Origin: Haematobacter missouriensis | GTDB lineage: Bacteria; Pseudomonadota; Alphaproteobacteria; Rhodobacterales; Rhodobacteraceae | Assembly: GCF_000740775.1 (NCBI RefSeq) | Contig: NZ_JFGS01000018.1 | Coordinates: 1-64,000 of the forward strand | DNA: 64,000 nucleotides | Direction: 5' to 3' | Shown here: piece after piece, positions 4,950 through 64,000 of the stretch | Layout of the letters: each line of letters opens with the position of its first letter | Position numbering within the stretch: position 1 is the first letter of the stretch | Position numbers and translations under genes: made by a program | Notes under the pieces: generated by a model | The model's database searches: none | Told to the model about the DNA's origin: nothing | What the model saw: the letters and a program-made list of their open reading frames with translations, nothing else

Positions 4950-4965
4950 GTTGACAGCTGTCAAC
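4950..4965. promoter_or_regulatory. parS: parS centromere site 2, overlapping the repC stop
   Basis: Second perfect copy of GTTGACAGCTGTCAAC. The last five bases of the palindrome overlap the repC 3' end, and the repC TGA codon (4961-4963 on the minus strand) lies within the site. Confidence 0.9.
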
Positions 4966-6028
4966 CTTCCATGATTGCGCTTCGGGATAATCCTCGAACC
5001 ATTCTCTCAAGAGAGAAGGTACCGTTTAGGGCCTTCTCAGCTAGCATCCGGAGGTAGGAGGATGGGCGATGGATGGATTTTAACCTTTGCAGAATGCAGG
5101 CAATCGTTGCCGCCGCGCATTCTGGCGCCATGGCTTCGCAGGCTTGTTGCCAAGAGTGAGCATCTATGCCGATCATTGGTCGTAACTGTTCGGCGGCGTG
5201 AATGAAGTCTCTCCAACTTTTCACAGGATAGAAACTTGCGAATTCCGTGCAGGATTCCAGCACCCGGGAAAAGTCGGGGATGACGGGCGCTCGGACGTTT
5301 TTCTTAATTGTTACTTTGTTGTCTTCTTGTATGTGCCGCTCATTTTGATTGTCATTGCCGCTCACTTCTTCCGGCTCGTCGAGTGTAAGAAACTGATTGA
5401 GTCGTTCAGCGATTTGTTCGAGTTCAACGTGTGAAAGCTTGCGTCGAAGGGCTTTCTTCATCTCCGTCAACGCAAGGACGTCCATTCCTCCAAGCTGAAT
5501 TGCATCCCGAAGTCTGAGGGTGACAAACTCACGCAACTGTCTAAGCTGGTCGTCGGCGCGGCGGCATTCATCTGCCATGCACCGAAACTCAACAGCTCTC
5601 CGTGCGAGTGGCCCAAGGTCAAAGCCAAATGCGTGGGCAGGGCGCGACTCGCTTCCCCGGGTTGCGTAGCGCTTGCCATTGGGGCTGTCGTGGCGAAGAA
5701 TCACGCCCGCTTTAACCAACGCCGCGATGTGGCGCCGTAGCGTGCTCTCCGGCATCCCGTGCGCACGATGCGAGAGCGTTGCATTGGAGGGAAACACAAT
5801 GCACCCGGCGGGCGATATGACGTCGCCTGGAACAAACGAGATCAACGCATGCAGGACCGACAGATCGCGATCGGAAAGCGAAAACCCTTTTCGTGCGACG
5901 GTCAGATCGCGCAAGGGCTCCCATTTCGGAACCGTTTTCGCTTCGGCCGAGCCTCGCGCCAGAGCGCGCGCCGCCATCAGGTCAGCCGTAACCGGCCGCC
6001 CAAAAGGCGCTATGGAAATATGCTTCAT
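4961..6028 (-). CDS. repC: Replication initiator RepC
   Basis: A 355-residue initiator of repABC replicons. The N-terminal two thirds match the RepC winged-helix domain: KGFSLSDRDLSVLHALISF near 49-67, then the stretch with NATLSHRAHGMPESTLRRHIAALV that recognises DNA. The C-terminal part, after an acidic low-complexity linker, contains SWQQACEAMAPECAAATIACILQR and SSYLRMLAEKA, typical of the family end. In this plasmid class the origin normally lies inside repC itself. The start has no clear ribosome site and follows the ctRNA region, consistent with control of repC translation by the antisense RNA. The stop codon lies inside parS site 2. Confidence 0.92.
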   Translation of the reverse strand: MKHISIAPFGRPVTADLMAARALARGSAEAKTVPKWEPLRDLTVARKGFSLSDRDLSVLHALISFVPGDVISPAGCIVFPSNATLSHRAHGMPESTLRRHIAALVKAGVILRHDSPNGKRYATRGSESRPAHAFGFDLGPLARRAVEFRCMADECRRADDQLRQLREFVTLRLRDAIQLGGMDVLALTEMKKALRRKLSHVELEQIAERLNQFLTLDEPEEVSGNDNQNERHIQEDNKVTIKKNVRAPVIPDFSRVLESCTEFASFYPVKSWRDFIHAAEQLRPMIGIDAHSWQQACEAMAPECAAATIACILQRLKSIHRPSSYLRMLAEKALNGTFSLERMVRGLSRSAIMEG

Positions 6029-6075
6029 ATCATGTCACGAGGACGCAAAATATCGGCCGCCGCAGAAAGACGGGA

Positions 6076-6091
6076 GTTGACAGCTGTCAAC
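6076..6091. promoter_or_regulatory. parS: parS site 3 in the repB-repC gap
   Basis: Third identical GTTGACAGCTGTCAAC palindrome, placed between repB and repC. Bases 6078-6083 (TTGACA) inside it are also a perfect -35 hexamer for a plus-strand promoter reading into the ctRNA. Confidence 0.9.
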
Positions 6092-6113
6092 AAAAGCCGC
6101 TACGTTCGAAGTG

Positions 6114-6166
6114 CTAGATCGACGGAACGGCCCTTCGGGATGTCATGTCCTGAGGGGCTTTTCTTT
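6114..6166 (+). ncRNA. Probable ctRNA (incompatibility antisense RNA)
   Basis: repABC plasmids encode a short antisense RNA opposite the repB-repC gap that represses repC. Here the plus strand offers TTGACA (6078-6083), an 18-bp spacer and TACGTT (6102-6107), which keeps the T, A and T key -10 positions. About 50 nt later comes a terminator hairpin with a T-rich tail. The predicted RNA of about 53 nt is of the expected size and lies opposite the repABC leader for repC. The 5' end is estimated, not mapped. Confidence 0.6.
6131..6166 (+). terminator. Intrinsic terminator of the ctRNA
   Basis: Arms 6131-6140 (CCCTTCGGGA) and 6148-6157 (TCCTGAGGGG) form a 10-bp stem with two G-U pairs and a 7-nt loop, followed by CTTTTCTTT on the plus strand. 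Confidence 0.7.
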
Positions 6167-6199
6167 GTCCTGCTTCGTGCTCCCTTGTTGTTACCAAGA

Positions 6200-7132
6200 T
6201 TATTCCTCGCCGCTGGTGAGCCAGCCGCGATGAATTTCGTCGAAATTCTCAATCAGCCATTCCGCGAATTTCGCATGTTGGCTGCTGTCTATTGTAAGCA
6301 CGGTGGCGCGGCTGTTGCGCGAAACCGCGCCCAACCGTTCGCCGCCGCTGCCGGTCAGTGGCGCCTTCTCCGGCGCAGGGGAGGGCGTCCGTTGGGCAAG
6401 ACCGGCCAGAACCGCTTCGAATCTCGCATCCGAGGTAATGCCCTCCGCAAGCGCGATCACATCCTCTATACGTCGGCCCTTTAGCCTGGAGGCGAGCGTC
6501 GTCCAGCGATCCCGGCCGATCGCCGGAGCCGTGCCAATGGCACGCATCAGGGGCAGAGGCACAGAATCCGCAACGGAAAGCATGCGCGAAATCAACGTCT
6601 TGTCGATCTGAAGCGCGTCACAGATGATCTTCCGGTCAAATCCTTCGTCCCGCATCGCGCGGGCAAAATTCACCTTCTCGATAAAGCTAAGGTCCTTGCG
6701 GGCGGTGTTCTCCTGTCCCTGCGCAATCACCAACTCGCGATCATTCAGGTTGCGGATCATCGCCTTGACGGGTTGTCCAAGCAATTTCAGCGCCGAGACG
6801 CGACGCCGGCCATAGACCACCTCATACCGACCCTCGTAATTGGGCGAATGGCGGAGAAGGACGGGCACCTGCTGGCCGTAATCGCGAATGCTTTCGGCGA
6901 GCGCCGCGATACCTTCCGGATCGTCATCCAGCCGGTCGCGAATTCCGGCATTGTCGATCATGTCAGGCGGAACGTCGATCACCGACCGGCTACGCAGATC
7001 GGCGATTGACTGGCTGACGGCACCAATGGCACCGCGACCGGGCCGGGGAATCGGCTGACTGGTCGAAACGCTGGCGGGGGAGGGGGGGTCTCCCGCGTCC
7101 ATAAGCCCTTTGAGAAGGTCTTTCCGTGCCAT
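6200..7132 (-). CDS. repB: Partition protein RepB (ParB family)
   Basis: A 310-residue ParB-family centromere-binding protein. The ParB nuclease-like domain spans about 50-140, with YGRRRVSALKLLG at 107-119 as the counterpart of the ParB box. A helix-turn-helix follows near 160-190 (ICDALQIDKTLISRML), and a C-terminal dimerisation region ends the protein. It should bind the three parS palindromes nearby and work with RepA to segregate the replicon. ATG 7132 is preferred over ATG 7156: GGGAGG lies 7 nt upstream, and the start overlaps the repA stop by one base (TGATG), indicating translational coupling. Confidence 0.92.
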   Translation of the reverse strand: MARKDLLKGLMDAGDPPSPASVSTSQPIPRPGRGAIGAVSQSIADLRSRSVIDVPPDMIDNAGIRDRLDDDPEGIAALAESIRDYGQQVPVLLRHSPNYEGRYEVVYGRRRVSALKLLGQPVKAMIRNLNDRELVIAQGQENTARKDLSFIEKVNFARAMRDEGFDRKIICDALQIDKTLISRMLSVADSVPLPLMRAIGTAPAIGRDRWTTLASRLKGRRIEDVIALAEGITSDARFEAVLAGLAQRTPSPAPEKAPLTGSGGERLGAVSRNSRATVLTIDSSQHAKFAEWLIENFDEIHRGWLTSGEE

Positions 7133-8319
7133 CAGGCGCCTCCCTTCCGGCCCCATGCCTGCTGGATCAGGGCCTCGATCTCGCCATTTACCGCATTCAG
7201 GCTTTCCATGGCGCGTTCATAGGTGGCGCGTACGAATTGCGTCCGTTCGATCTCATAGAGGGTCTGCTTGGTGATCCCCGCGTCGGAAATCGCCGTGGAC
7301 TTCAGCACTGGATGGTTGAGCACATGTTCCCCGAACATGGAGCGCATGAAGCTCACCATCTGGTTCTGCGGCCCATCGCCCGGTTCATAGCGTGTCACGA
7401 CATATCGCAGCCAGTCATAGGACATGTTGCCGCCTGCCTCGGATACCACCCCGAGCAGGTTGGAGGTCATCAGCAGAAACTGACACATCGACATCACATC
7501 AAGCATCTGCGGATGAACCGTCACCAATACCGCAGTGGCGGCAGAGAGCGCCGACATCGTCAGAAAGCCCAATTGCGGCGGGCAGTCGATCACCACCACG
7601 TCATAATTCGCCTCCACCTCCGCCAGCTTGTCGCCGACGCGGGTGAAGAAGAACTGTCCCGTGCGCGAAGCGAGCATCCGCGGGGTGTCATGCTCGAACT
7701 CCATGAGATCGAGATTTCCCGGTATGATGTCGAGGTTGGGGAAATAGGTGGGCTGGATCACATCGGCCAGCGGGACCGGCACATCGTAACGAATCGCATC
7801 GTAAAGCGTGCCGCCGTCGATCAGATCGAATTCCGGCTGAAACCCATGGAGCGCGCTGAGGCTTGCCTGCGGATCCAGATCGACCGCCAGCACGCGGTAG
7901 CCGTCCAGCGCGAGCTTCTGGGCAAGATGCGCGGCAGTCGTCGTCTTGCCGGAACCACCCTTGAAATTGATGACGGCGATCACCTGAAGATGGTCGTTCT
8001 CCCGTCGGCCAGGCAGATAGGTGCCGGGAGATTTCGCCCCCTTTTCAAGCATTTCGCGCAGAGCCTGCACATCGGCGAGGGAGTAGTAACGCCGCCCGCC
8101 CGCCCGCGTCTCCGGACTCGGCCCACGTCCCTCGAGATGCAGTTTTCGCAGATAGGCATCTTTTACGCCCAGAAGCTCGGCCACCTCACCGGAGGTGAAC
8201 TTCCGCAACTCCTTGCGGGCGTCAGGAGGGAAAAGCTGGGCACGATGCGCCTGAAGCCGCTCCGAAAGCCGCGCGGCATGTTCTCCCACGAGAACGTCAA
8301 TGCGTTCCTGTTTTGTCAT
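7132..8319 (-). CDS. repA: Partition ATPase RepA (ParA family)
   Basis: A 395-residue ParA-type Walker ATPase that partitions the plasmid and autorepresses the repABC operon. An N-terminal helix-turn-helix region (about 41-80, FTSGEVAELLGVKDAYLRKL) precedes the deviant Walker A motif KGGSGKTTT at 120-128. LDPQASLS and VVIDCPPQLGF supply the A' and Walker B motifs. GAGG lies 7 nt before the ATG. First gene of the operon, coupled to repB. Confidence 0.93.
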   Translation of the reverse strand: MTKQERIDVLVGEHAARLSERLQAHRAQLFPPDARKELRKFTSGEVAELLGVKDAYLRKLHLEGRGPSPETRAGGRRYYSLADVQALREMLEKGAKSPGTYLPGRRENDHLQVIAVINFKGGSGKTTTAAHLAQKLALDGYRVLAVDLDPQASLSALHGFQPEFDLIDGGTLYDAIRYDVPVPLADVIQPTYFPNLDIIPGNLDLMEFEHDTPRMLASRTGQFFFTRVGDKLAEVEANYDVVVIDCPPQLGFLTMSALSAATAVLVTVHPQMLDVMSMCQFLLMTSNLLGVVSEAGGNMSYDWLRYVVTRYEPGDGPQNQMVSFMRSMFGEHVLNHPVLKSTAISDAGITKQTLYEIERTQFVRATYERAMESLNAVNGEIEALIQQAWGRKGGA

Positions 8320-36143: not shown

Positions 36144-36296
36144 CGGGCTGCTGAAAAGCCGGACATTGACCTGCCCCTGCGTCGGATGCCGGAAAACCGG
36201 TTCGGGCATGCGCCGAAACTGCGGTTTCCGGGGCGCGGTTCAGGATGTGGAAAAGCCTCCCCGGTGCCCTCGGAGTGCTTTTTTTGCAGCCTGTTG
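36144..36296 (+). repeat. Dispersed intergenic element, copy C
   Basis: Starts GGGCTGCTGAAAAGCCGG and contains AACTGCGGTTTCCGGGGCGCG, shared with copies B and D. It ends TGCTTTTTTTGCAGCCTGTTGA. The two ends are inverted repeats of each other. Confidence 0.7.
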
Positions 36297-44803: not shown

Positions 44804-45761
44804 GGCACTCTCCCGCGACCCTCCGTGACGGCGGCAAGGGCCAATTCCCGAGAGTTTTACTTCAGGCCTCCGGTCAATGACCAGAGACAGTTTGTGGCCA
44901 GAGCCGGAAACGGCCCTGAATGCGCCAGGCTGCAGGTTGGCTGCCGGACAAAGGCAGGCGGAGGGACTCGCAAAGGGCGCGCGCAAGCCGCCTTCGGATC
45001 GGCCTCCGCCCGGGAAGCTCGGACATGAGCCACATTCGCCGCCGGCCGGAAGGCGGGGGGTCACGGGCGATGCCCGGTTCGGTTGTTGTTCCGCGGCGGA
45101 TAGGCGGGATCCGCGACCCCTAACATGAAAGAAACATTTGTGCTTATGTTGGAGCGAAAATCATTCGCAATCCGACGAAATCCAGCCGGAAATTGTTACA
45201 CTTCCGGGATGATTTTCCGATGTCCGGCCCATAGGCACGCCACTTTGGGAGTTTTTCAGCGGCCTGCTATAAGGGCGGGTCGCGGCAGCGGTGTCTCCCG
45301 CAGGTCTTGCGCTGGTTTACAGGCCGCCCCGGAAATGTTCCAGCAGGCTGCTGAAAAAGTCGGGCGTCCCCCCAGGCTTGCGTCGAAAGCCAGAAAATCT
45401 GTCCGATCACGTGCCAGAACTGGCGGTTTCCGGGACACATCTCAACAGTGCGGGAAGGAGCTTCAGGAGAATCGTGGAATGCTTTTTCAGCAGCCTGTTA
45501 GGTCTGCGCGGGAGCGGGAGATCGCCTGAGGACCTGAAGAAATCCAGACATTCGGGGGTCCGATGCCCCGATGTTCAAGGCATGGTATTCAGGAACTTTT
45601 CGGCAGGCTGTTGGATCAGGAAGCGGTTTTAGCAATGCCCCCGCCGATTTGACCGATCCACCCCGACTGGTCCCAGCCGACCGATCCACCGGGCCGGGGC
45701 CAATCCACTCCTCCCACGCCAAGCTGCTGCGTCCGGGCCAGCCGCCCGGCCCGGACCGTCC
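44804..45761. other. Gene-free boundary region with repeat copies
   Basis: About 960 bp between fecI and the thioesterase pseudogene without a supported gene. The first 320 bp hold the fecI promoter region, where I could not find a convincing Fur box. Bases 45140-45615 carry dispersed element copy B in two or three units. The remaining 150 bp show nothing recognisable. Confidence 0.5.
45140..45615. repeat. Dispersed intergenic element, copy B (best preserved cluster)
   Basis: Unit B2 (about 45341-45502) is the clearest member. It begins CAGCAGGCTGCTGAAAAAG and ends CTTTTTCAGCAGCCTGTTAG, perfect terminal inverted repeats of about 14 bp. Unit B1 (about 45140-45275) resembles copy A1 and may be the same element in opposite orientation. 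A fragment at about 45530-45615 ends CTTTTCGGCAGGCTGTTGG. No transposase is encoded. Confidence 0.75.
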
Positions 45762-60790: not shown

Positions 60791-61252
60791 TCAGGCCCGG
60801 CCCTCTGCACCATGGCTCTCTGCGCCATGATCCCCTGCATCGTGTGCATCGGCGCAAAGCGCGTGATTGCCCAGCACTTCGATCACCCGGCAATCGGCGA
60901 TTGTCCCGCAGGAGCACTGCTTAAGCATCCGCTCCAGCTCCCCCCGCAGCGCATCCAGACGTGAAATGCGCGCCTTCACCTCTCGCAGCTGGCGCCGGGC
61001 GATGTCATCGGCGGCCCGGCAGGAGCGGTCAGGGTCGTCGGAAAGGTCGAGCAATTCCCGGATCGCCTCCAGAGAGAAGCCCAGTTCGCGGGCATGACGC
61101 ACGAAGGCCAGACGGTCCTGCGCCGGCTGATCATAGAGTCTGCGATTGCCGCTGCTCCGTTCCGGCTCGGGCAGCAGGCCGATCTGCTCATAATAGCGGA
61201 TCGTCGGCACCTTGACGCCCGTCGCCCTTGATAGATCGCCAATGGTGAGCAT
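60791..61252 (-). CDS. MerR-family heavy-metal regulator (CadR/ZntR/PbrR type)
   Basis: A 153-residue MerR protein. The winged helix (MLTIGDLSRATGVKVPTIRYYEQIGLLPEPERSSGNRRLY) and a long dimer helix precede the metal-binding loop, with Cys in DRSCRAADD and CSCGTIADCRVIEVL near 112-126. A His/Glu-rich end (CADAHDAGDHGAESHGAEG) is consistent with Zn, Cd or Pb binding. Divergent from the P-type ATPase and should activate it through the adjacent promoter. Confidence 0.87.
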   Translation of the reverse strand: MLTIGDLSRATGVKVPTIRYYEQIGLLPEPERSSGNRRLYDQPAQDRLAFVRHARELGFSLEAIRELLDLSDDPDRSCRAADDIARRQLREVKARISRLDALRGELERMLKQCSCGTIADCRVIEVLGNHALCADAHDAGDHGAESHGAEGRA

Positions 61253-61296: not shown

Positions 61297-61348
61297 CTCG
61301 AATCGCAAGGGGCAAGATGTGCCCCGCGGACGAGCGAAGGAGCACGGC

Positions 61349-63586
61349 ATGGCCGATGGAGCGAACCGCCGGGAATGGATCGTCACAGGCATGGACTGTG
61401 CGTCCTGCGCGGCGAAGATCACACATGCGGTGGAGCGGTTGCCGGGGGTGAGCGATGTGCGCGTGGCGCTGATGGCAGAGCGGCTGACAGCGCATCTTGC
61501 CCCCGGCGCGACGGACCCGGCAAAAATCGAGGATACCGTCCGGCGGCTCGGGTTCGGCATCGCAACCGAAGAGGCGGCGGCGCCCCGGAAGAAACCCTTC
61601 ATCCTCCCCGCCGATGCGCCCCCCATGGACGTGCACCCCCACAGCGGCGATCAAGGACACCACCACGGCGATGCGCCTTCACCCTTGGCCGCAAGCCGTC
61701 CGCCGGAAGCTCTGCATCGGAACAGACGCTTGTATCGCACCGCGAAGGGCCGGCTGGTAATGCTGAGCGCGGCTCTGCTGGCGGTGGCCTGGAGCGTGGA
61801 GCTGCTGGCCGGGCCGGGCCTGGGCTACCCGGCATTTCTTCTTGCCTGCCTGATCGGAGTCGCTCCCGTGGCGAAACGGGCGCTGGCCGCGCTGCGAACG
61901 GGCCAGCCCTTCACCATTGAAAGCCTCATGACCATTGCCGTGCTCGGCGCGCTGTTCATCGGTGCGGTGGAGGAGGCGGCGGTGGTCGTCTTTCTCTTTG
62001 CCGTGGGCGAGGTGCTGGAAGGCGTGGCGGCGGATCGGGCGCGCAGCGGCATCCGCGCGCTCGCTGCTCTGGTGCCGAAGGTGGCGCTGCTTGAGACGCC
62101 ATCCGGCCTACGCGAAGTCGGGGCCGGGACGCTCACGATCGGGCAGATCGTGCTTGTCCGGCCGGGCGACCGGATCCCCGCGGATGGCGAGATCGTCGAA
62201 GGCACGAGCGGGATCGACGAAAGCCCCGTCACGGGCGAGAGCGTGCCCCGGACCAAGGGCCCCAGGGAGCAGGTTTTCGCCGGCACCATCAATGTGGAGG
62301 CCGCGCTGCGCCTGCGCGTGACGCAGGCGGCCAGCGACAACACCATCGCCCGTATCGTGCGGCTGGTCGAGGAGGCGGAGGAGGCCCGCGCGCCGACGGA
62401 ACGTTTCATCGACCGGTTCTCCCGCTGGTACATGCCGCTGATCGTGGGGATCGCGGCGCTGGTCATGGTGCTGCCCCCGCTGCTGACGGGCGCGGACTGG
62501 AGCACCTGGGTCTATCGCGGCCTTGCCATCCTGCTGATCGGGTGCCCCTGCGCGCTGGTCATTTCCGTTCCCGCCTCCATCGCTTCCGCCCTGTCGGCGG
62601 GGGCGCGGCGGGGGTTGCTGATGAAGGGCGGCGCGGTGATCGAAGCCGCCGCCACCCTTCGCCATGCGGCATTCGATAAGACCGGGACCTTGACGCGCGG
62701 CGCGCCGGTGGTGACCGATGTCGTCCCCGCGCCAGGCGTGTCGGAGCAGGACCTTCTGACCGTCGCGGCCGCTGTTGAGAGCGGCTCCAACCATCCGCTC
62801 GCGCAGGCGATCCTCGCTCGTGCAGGCACGTCAGGCCTCGTCCCGCGGCTTGCGACCGAGGCGCGGGCGATCCCCGGCAAGGGGGCGGTCGCGCGGGTTG
62901 ACGGGGTGGAGACGTGGGTCTCCTCGCCCCGTTACGCGACGGAGATGACCGGAGTGGCGGACCCCGGCCACGCCACGGCGCTGGAGGCGGAAGGCAAGAC
63001 GGTCGTCGCGGTCTTTCGCAGCGGCCAGCCGCTCGGCCTGCTCGCGCTCCGGGATGAACCGCGCCCGGATGCGGCAGAGGGGATACGACAGCTCCGCGCG
63101 CTCGGGATAGATGCCACGATGCTCACCGGCGACAATCCTCGTACCGCCGCCGCCATTGCGGGGGAGCTGGGCATGGACTTCCGCGCGGAGATGCTGCCGG
63201 AGGACAAGCTCGCCGCGATCCGTGGGATGCAGGCGGCAGGGGGCGTCATGATGATCGGTGACGGTATCAACGATGCCCCGGCCCTGAAGCAGGCGGGCGT
63301 GGGCGTGGCGATGGGGTCGGGCACGGATGTGGCGCTGGAAACCGCGGATGCCGCCATCCTGCGCGACCGGGTGGCGGACGTGGCGGCAATGGTGCGCCTT
63401 GCCCGCGGGGCGATGCGGAACATCCATCAGAACATCGCACTGGCGCTCGGGTTGAAGGCGGTGTTCCTCGTCACCTCCACCCTGGGCATCACAGGACTGT
63501 GGCTCGCCATTCTTGCGGATACGGGCGCAACGGTTCTGGTCACGCTCAACGCGCTCCGGCTGCTGCGCTTCAACCCGGAGCGGTGA
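61349..63586 (+). CDS. zntA: Zn/Cd/Pb-translocating P-type ATPase
   Basis: A 745-residue P1B-type ATPase that exports soft metals from the cytoplasm. An N-terminal heavy-metal domain has Cys17-x-x-Cys20 (GMDCASC). A His-rich linker is at 94-107. Membrane helix 6 carries CPCALVIS, followed by the phosphorylation site DKTGTLTRG, the HP motif in SGSNHPLAQA and the hinge MIGDGINDAPAL. ATG 61349 has AAGGAG 8 nt upstream. CPC in helix 6 fits Zn2+/Cd2+/Pb2+ or Cu+; the MerR partner favours Zn or Cd. Confidence 0.9.
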   Translation: MADGANRREWIVTGMDCASCAAKITHAVERLPGVSDVRVALMAERLTAHLAPGATDPAKIEDTVRRLGFGIATEEAAAPRKKPFILPADAPPMDVHPHSGDQGHHHGDAPSPLAASRPPEALHRNRRLYRTAKGRLVMLSAALLAVAWSVELLAGPGLGYPAFLLACLIGVAPVAKRALAALRTGQPFTIESLMTIAVLGALFIGAVEEAAVVVFLFAVGEVLEGVAADRARSGIRALAALVPKVALLETPSGLREVGAGTLTIGQIVLVRPGDRIPADGEIVEGTSGIDESPVTGESVPRTKGPREQVFAGTINVEAALRLRVTQAASDNTIARIVRLVEEAEEARAPTERFIDRFSRWYMPLIVGIAALVMVLPPLLTGADWSTWVYRGLAILLIGCPCALVISVPASIASALSAGARRGLLMKGGAVIEAAATLRHAAFDKTGTLTRGAPVVTDVVPAPGVSEQDLLTVAAAVESGSNHPLAQAILARAGTSGLVPRLATEARAIPGKGAVARVDGVETWVSSPRYATEMTGVADPGHATALEAEGKTVVAVFRSGQPLGLLALRDEPRPDAAEGIRQLRALGIDATMLTGDNPRTAAAIAGELGMDFRAEMLPEDKLAAIRGMQAAGGVMMIGDGINDAPALKQAGVGVAMGSGTDVALETADAAILRDRVADVAAMVRLARGAMRNIHQNIALALGLKAVFLVTSTLGITGLWLAILADTGATVLVTLNALRLLRFNPER

Positions 63587-63593
63587 CGGCTTT

Positions 63594-63758
63594 AGCAGGT
63601 TGCCGAAAAAGCCGGGCATCTCCCCGGGGCTTGCGTCGAAAGCCGGAAGATCTCTCCGGTCACAGGCCAGAACCTGCGGTTTCCGGGGCGCGCCTCAGCA
63701 ATGTGGGGGAGATCCCCGCCCCGGGGCAGCCGCGGAATGCGTTTTCAACGTCCTGGCA
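63594..63758 (+). repeat. Dispersed intergenic element, copy D
   Basis: Begins AGCAGGTTGCCGAAAAAGCC and shares TTGCGTCGAAAGCCGGAAGATC and CTGCGGTTTCCGGGGCGCG with copies B and C. It ends GCGTTTTCAACGTCCTGGCAGG. The encapsulin stop codon and its last three codons lie within this end. Confidence 0.7.
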
Positions 63759-64000
63759 GGACAACGACGGCCTCGCTGGTCTGCATCTGGAAGGTCAGGC
63801 TCTCCTGAAGGTAAAGCGTCACCTGTTCCGCGTCATGGGAGAGGTAGCCGATGGAGATGTCCTGGCCGAGCCAGAGGTCGAAGTCGCCCCCCCGCGTCGT
63901 GAGCACGGCACAGCCCTCCAGCGCCTGGCTCCACACCACCGGCACATCGACGAGTTTCTGGAGGTGGTTGAGCACGGGATAGCCGTCCTCCGCCCCGCCC
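63745..64000 (-). CDS. Encapsulin (family 1 nanocompartment shell), C-terminal part
   Basis: Only the last 84 residues are in the window; the gene continues to the right. The sequence GAEDGYPVLNHLQKLVD, VPVVWSQALEGCAVLTTRGGDFDLWLGQDISIGYLSHD and QVTLYLQESLTFQMQTSEAVV matches the end of family 1 (linocin-like) encapsulins, which form virus-like protein shells holding a ferritin-like protein or Dyp peroxidase. The reading frame is open to the window edge. The cargo gene would be expected upstream, outside the window. The last residues (LPGR) come from the dispersed repeat end and differ from the usual C-terminus. Confidence 0.85.
   Translation of the reverse strand, partial: GGAEDGYPVLNHLQKLVDVPVVWSQALEGCAVLTTRGGDFDLWLGQDISIGYLSHDAEQVTLYLQESLTFQMQTSEAVVVLPGR

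Follow-up and report, generated by a model that had tools for sequence, protein, structure and literature searches.

DyP encapsulins of Klebsiella pneumoniae (8u50 and 8u4z) and Escherichia coli (9e5e) have been characterised, and mobile elements are known to carry such operons in enterobacteria (PMC10960027, PMC12140327). In these systems, the DyP gene lies directly upstream of the shell gene, the DyP carries a GSLxIGSLK-type tail, whose motif has been published as the targeting signal of encapsulated DyPs (PMC10960027), and the operons are often found on mobile DNA or plasmids. The enterobacterial four-gene cassette also includes a formate dehydrogenase gene upstream and an RpoH-like sigma gene downstream. 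Similar operons with the same gene order occur in Paracoccus, several of them plasmid-borne (plasmids of P. denitrificans, P. aminovorans and Paracoccus sp. MA). A bestrophin-family channel gene directly follows the shell gene in several Paracoccus operons, starting approximately 7 bp after the encapsulin in some of them (L103:12806-13711 and L104:15805-16701). This arrangement was detected in 3 of 80 genome loci, all from Paracoccus, and on two plasmids. When the text of PMC12140327, which covers the enterobacterial DyP encapsulins, was searched for bestrophin, nothing was found. An FdhF/YdeP oxidoreductase gene can also lie near the Paracoccus encapsulin-bestrophin loci.

In this study, a 64,000-nucleotide stretch of Haematobacter missouriensis DNA (the window; positions 1-64000 of contig C18) was analysed, and the 3′ end of an encapsulin shell gene was located at its right edge (63745-64000, minus strand). 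The open frame at 63745-63999 reproduced the 84 C-terminal residues on which the original prediction of a family 1 encapsulin had been based, and these residues matched the last quarter of the Pfam Linocin_M18 profile (E = 1.1e-21, positions 186-253 of 253). The contig extends to 80,897 bp, so the shell gene could be read past the window edge. The complete gene (C18:63745-64545, minus strand) encodes 266 amino acids with no internal stop, and it was the sole encapsulin gene found in a search of the genome. Residues 4-263 of the protein (260 residues) matched the family 1 model NF041155 encap_f1 of NCBIfam (1.2e-100, 336 bits against a cut-off of 100), thereby bearing out the predicted family over the full length. 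The nearest solved shells were 9e5e (E. coli, 1e-102) and 8u50 (K. pneumoniae), both of which are DyP-loaded encapsulins. An AlphaFold model built from 58 sequences reached a pLDDT of 91 (an earlier model from 5 sequences, with a pLDDT of 51, was set aside) and displayed an HK97-type fold with the N-terminus present. Foldseek ranked 9e5e and 8u50 as its top two matches, with TM scores of 0.94-0.96 and 61-62% identity. The end of the window cuts the gene, as would be seen with a truncated or degraded fragment at a contig edge; however, the contig continues, the frame is complete and free of stops, and the shell aligns over its full length with its relatives and is 98% identical to the copy in Haematobacter genomosp. 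1 H2240. A fragment is therefore ruled out for practical purposes.

An intact DyP peroxidase gene was identified outside the window, directly upstream of the shell gene with a gap of 1 bp (C18:64547-65614, minus strand; 355 aa). Translation may in fact begin at Met8, the residue at which the Paracoccus protein starts in the alignment. The best solved match was 8u4z, annotated as 'Family 1 encapsulin-associated DyP peroxidase' (3.4e-126), and the alignment included the C-terminal tail. The protein contains GFVDGTENP at position 152, AHN at 227 and LRDNMPFG at 245, which we take to be heme-site motifs. The translated C-terminus, DGSLGLGSLKQGN, is a known encapsulin targeting peptide; the longer end reads ...RRDGSLGLGSLKQGN, and its tail, GSLGLGSLK, fits GSLxIGSLK except for a conservative L for I that is common to several Paracoccus DyPs. 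A DyP gene was present upstream of the encapsulin gene in all 80 related loci fetched from genomes, and nearly all of these DyPs carried the targeting tail. The cargo had been suggested to be new, and this suggestion fails for the gene adjoining the shell gene: because the adjacent DyP has a canonical tail and the pair recurs in all 80 loci, the cargo is regarded as ordinary. Some family 1 encapsulin shells load secondary cargo, and a ferritin-like or novel protein encoded elsewhere could accordingly be proposed as the cargo instead of DyP; with a canonically tagged DyP in the same operon, we consider this very improbable.

The locus is almost certainly an ordinary two-gene DyP-encapsulin operon of a Haematobacter species, that is, the commonest type of encapsulin system. 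Translation of the DyP would precede that of the shell protein, the genes being one base apart. By analogy with characterised relatives, the shell proteins would assemble into a T=1 cage approximately 24 nm across, and the GSLGLGSLK tail would bind the inner wall and thereby load the heme peroxidase. The loaded DyP would then consume hydrogen peroxide and oxidise small substrates that enter via the pores, and it would probably have a role in oxidative stress.

Compared with known systems, the shell was approximately 61-62% identical over its full length to those of Klebsiella and E. coli, and 78-87% identical to those of the Paracoccus operons, with DyP identities of approximately 62-75% for the latter. 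The Haematobacter copy differs from the enterobacterial systems in that it adjoins a zntA-like gene and an interspersed repeat and has the tail GSLGLGSLK; no formate dehydrogenase or RpoH-like gene was seen beside it, and zntA is its downstream neighbour. Unlike several Paracoccus operons, it has no bestrophin gene after the shell gene, and the repeat occupies that place. A query with the Paracoccus FdhF/YdeP protein gave no match in positions 1-80,000 of C18. The nearest named relative was Haematobacter genomosp. 1 H2240, with identical gene order. A Linocin_M18 match was found in 4 of 395 sampled genomes of the family, and one of these matches (G043) was weak.

The replicon was characterised by its repABC replication and partition genes (4961-8319, minus strand; RepC 4961-6028, RepB 6200-7156 and RepA 7132-8319), which mark a plasmid or chromid, and by the collinearity of the window over long stretches with pOT1-2, a 349-kb plasmid of H. 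massiliensis OT1 typed as conjugative. Both observations agree with the plasmid location originally proposed, and they reject a chromosomal location, which had been suspected from the presence of hemC on the contig. The original prediction also implied that this location is surprising, encapsulins being usually chromosomal. Relatives of the shell were present in 63 plasmid records, including those of Paracoccus, Sphingomonas, E. coli, Klebsiella and Salmonella; plasmid-borne DyP encapsulins are thus common, and together with the known operons on mobile elements they leave no reason for surprise. The only hemC match of the genome lies at C18:69614-70558 (L009:9614-10558), and this contig also holds repABC. 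In three Haematobacter genomes, hemC gave one match apiece, and in H. massiliensis OT1 the gene is annotated on pOT1-2. Since the sole hemC of the genome is carried on a repABC replicon, the replicon looks like a chromid, though the homologous plasmid of OT1 has been typed as conjugative.

Positions ~60,809 to ~68,915 of C18 were missing from H. massiliensis OT1 and from another Haematobacter genome (G395), and the junction was identical in both (in OT1, NZ_CP035512.1 ~289162-289866; L095:19163-19867). The missing stretch comprises the MerR, zntA, encapsulin, DyP and M24 peptidase genes and the 5′ half of a LysR gene, and the decayed 3′ half of LysR stays beside hemC at the junction in OT1 and G395 (L101). 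Because this decayed half remains, a deletion of approximately 8.1 kb in the lineage of H. massiliensis and G395 fits better than an insertion in the other genomes, and a recent insertion of the encapsulin block is disfavoured.

Between the zntA-like and encapsulin genes, the gap is filled by a copy of an interspersed repeat of approximately 155 bp (63588-63762, strand arbitrary), the outer edge of which contributes the last encapsulin codons. Further copies occur in the window at 45342-45454 and 36154-36283. Imperfect inverted ends (TAGCAGGCTGCYGAAAAAG ... CTTTTTCAGCAGCCTGTTA) flank a conserved core (GCGGTTTCCGGGGCGC) in this repeat, which is MITE-like. At least 25 matches were counted in the H. 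missouriensis genome, 40 in a second encapsulin-bearing Haematobacter genome (G298) and 3 in G395; the 60 further genera sampled within the family gave none, and the repeat is genus-specific. It is not part of the encapsulin system. On the other side of the operon, C18:65615-67236 is a stretch of approximately 1.6 kb between the DyP and M24 peptidase genes with no convincing gene, and two weak open reading frames in it gave no Pfam matches. This stretch holds a second repeat-like sequence with inverted ends (L009:6840-7040), for which a plasmid search returned a single match, on a H. massiliensis plasmid. An Rfam search of C18:60500-70600 gave no matches.

The neighbouring zntA-like gene encodes a Zn/Cd/Pb-type P1B ATPase (61319-63586, plus strand), and a MerR-family regulator gene (CadR/PbrR/CueR-like; 60791-61252, minus strand) is divergent from it. 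The stop codon of the zntA-like gene (63586) lies 158 bp from the end of the encapsulin gene, in accordance with the predicted distance of approximately 160 bp, and the two genes converge; the exporter is probably outside the encapsulin system. The encapsulin had been placed at the edge of a metal region, and the two units could form one metal-stress module, acting for example against peroxide or heme stress induced by Zn or Cd. They lie side by side in the two encapsulin-bearing Haematobacter genomes that were searched (H. missouriensis and G298), the H2240 locus (L055; H2240 and G298 may be one genome) has the same arrangement, the MerR-zntA pair was apparently lost together with the encapsulin block in H. 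massiliensis, and a MerR-zntA unit lies approximately 1.35 kb from the encapsulin gene in Paracoccus sulfuroxidans (L014). However, the orientation is convergent in Haematobacter and the arrangement is opposite in P. sulfuroxidans, the repeat stands between the two units, and a P1B-type ATPase was near the encapsulin gene in just 3 of 80 loci (L014, L055 and L062, the last at 32% identity). Such a module is therefore highly unlikely. The same low probability applies to the broader proposal that the encapsulated DyP and the exporter are one inherited plasmid stress block, discarded whole by H. massiliensis, with the nanocompartment acting in metal-induced oxidative or heme stress in Haematobacter. 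Apart from adjacency within Haematobacter, nothing supports a metal-tied function, and the exporter most likely shares the repABC replicon with the operon as an unrelated neighbour.

The case left at the edge of the window is thus settled, with an intact shell and the commonest known cargo. Plasmid-borne DyP encapsulins now include those of Haematobacter, and the probable loss of the block is documented in a sister species. Finding the sole hemC of the genome on a repABC replicon is relevant to the question of how plasmids turn into indispensable chromids.
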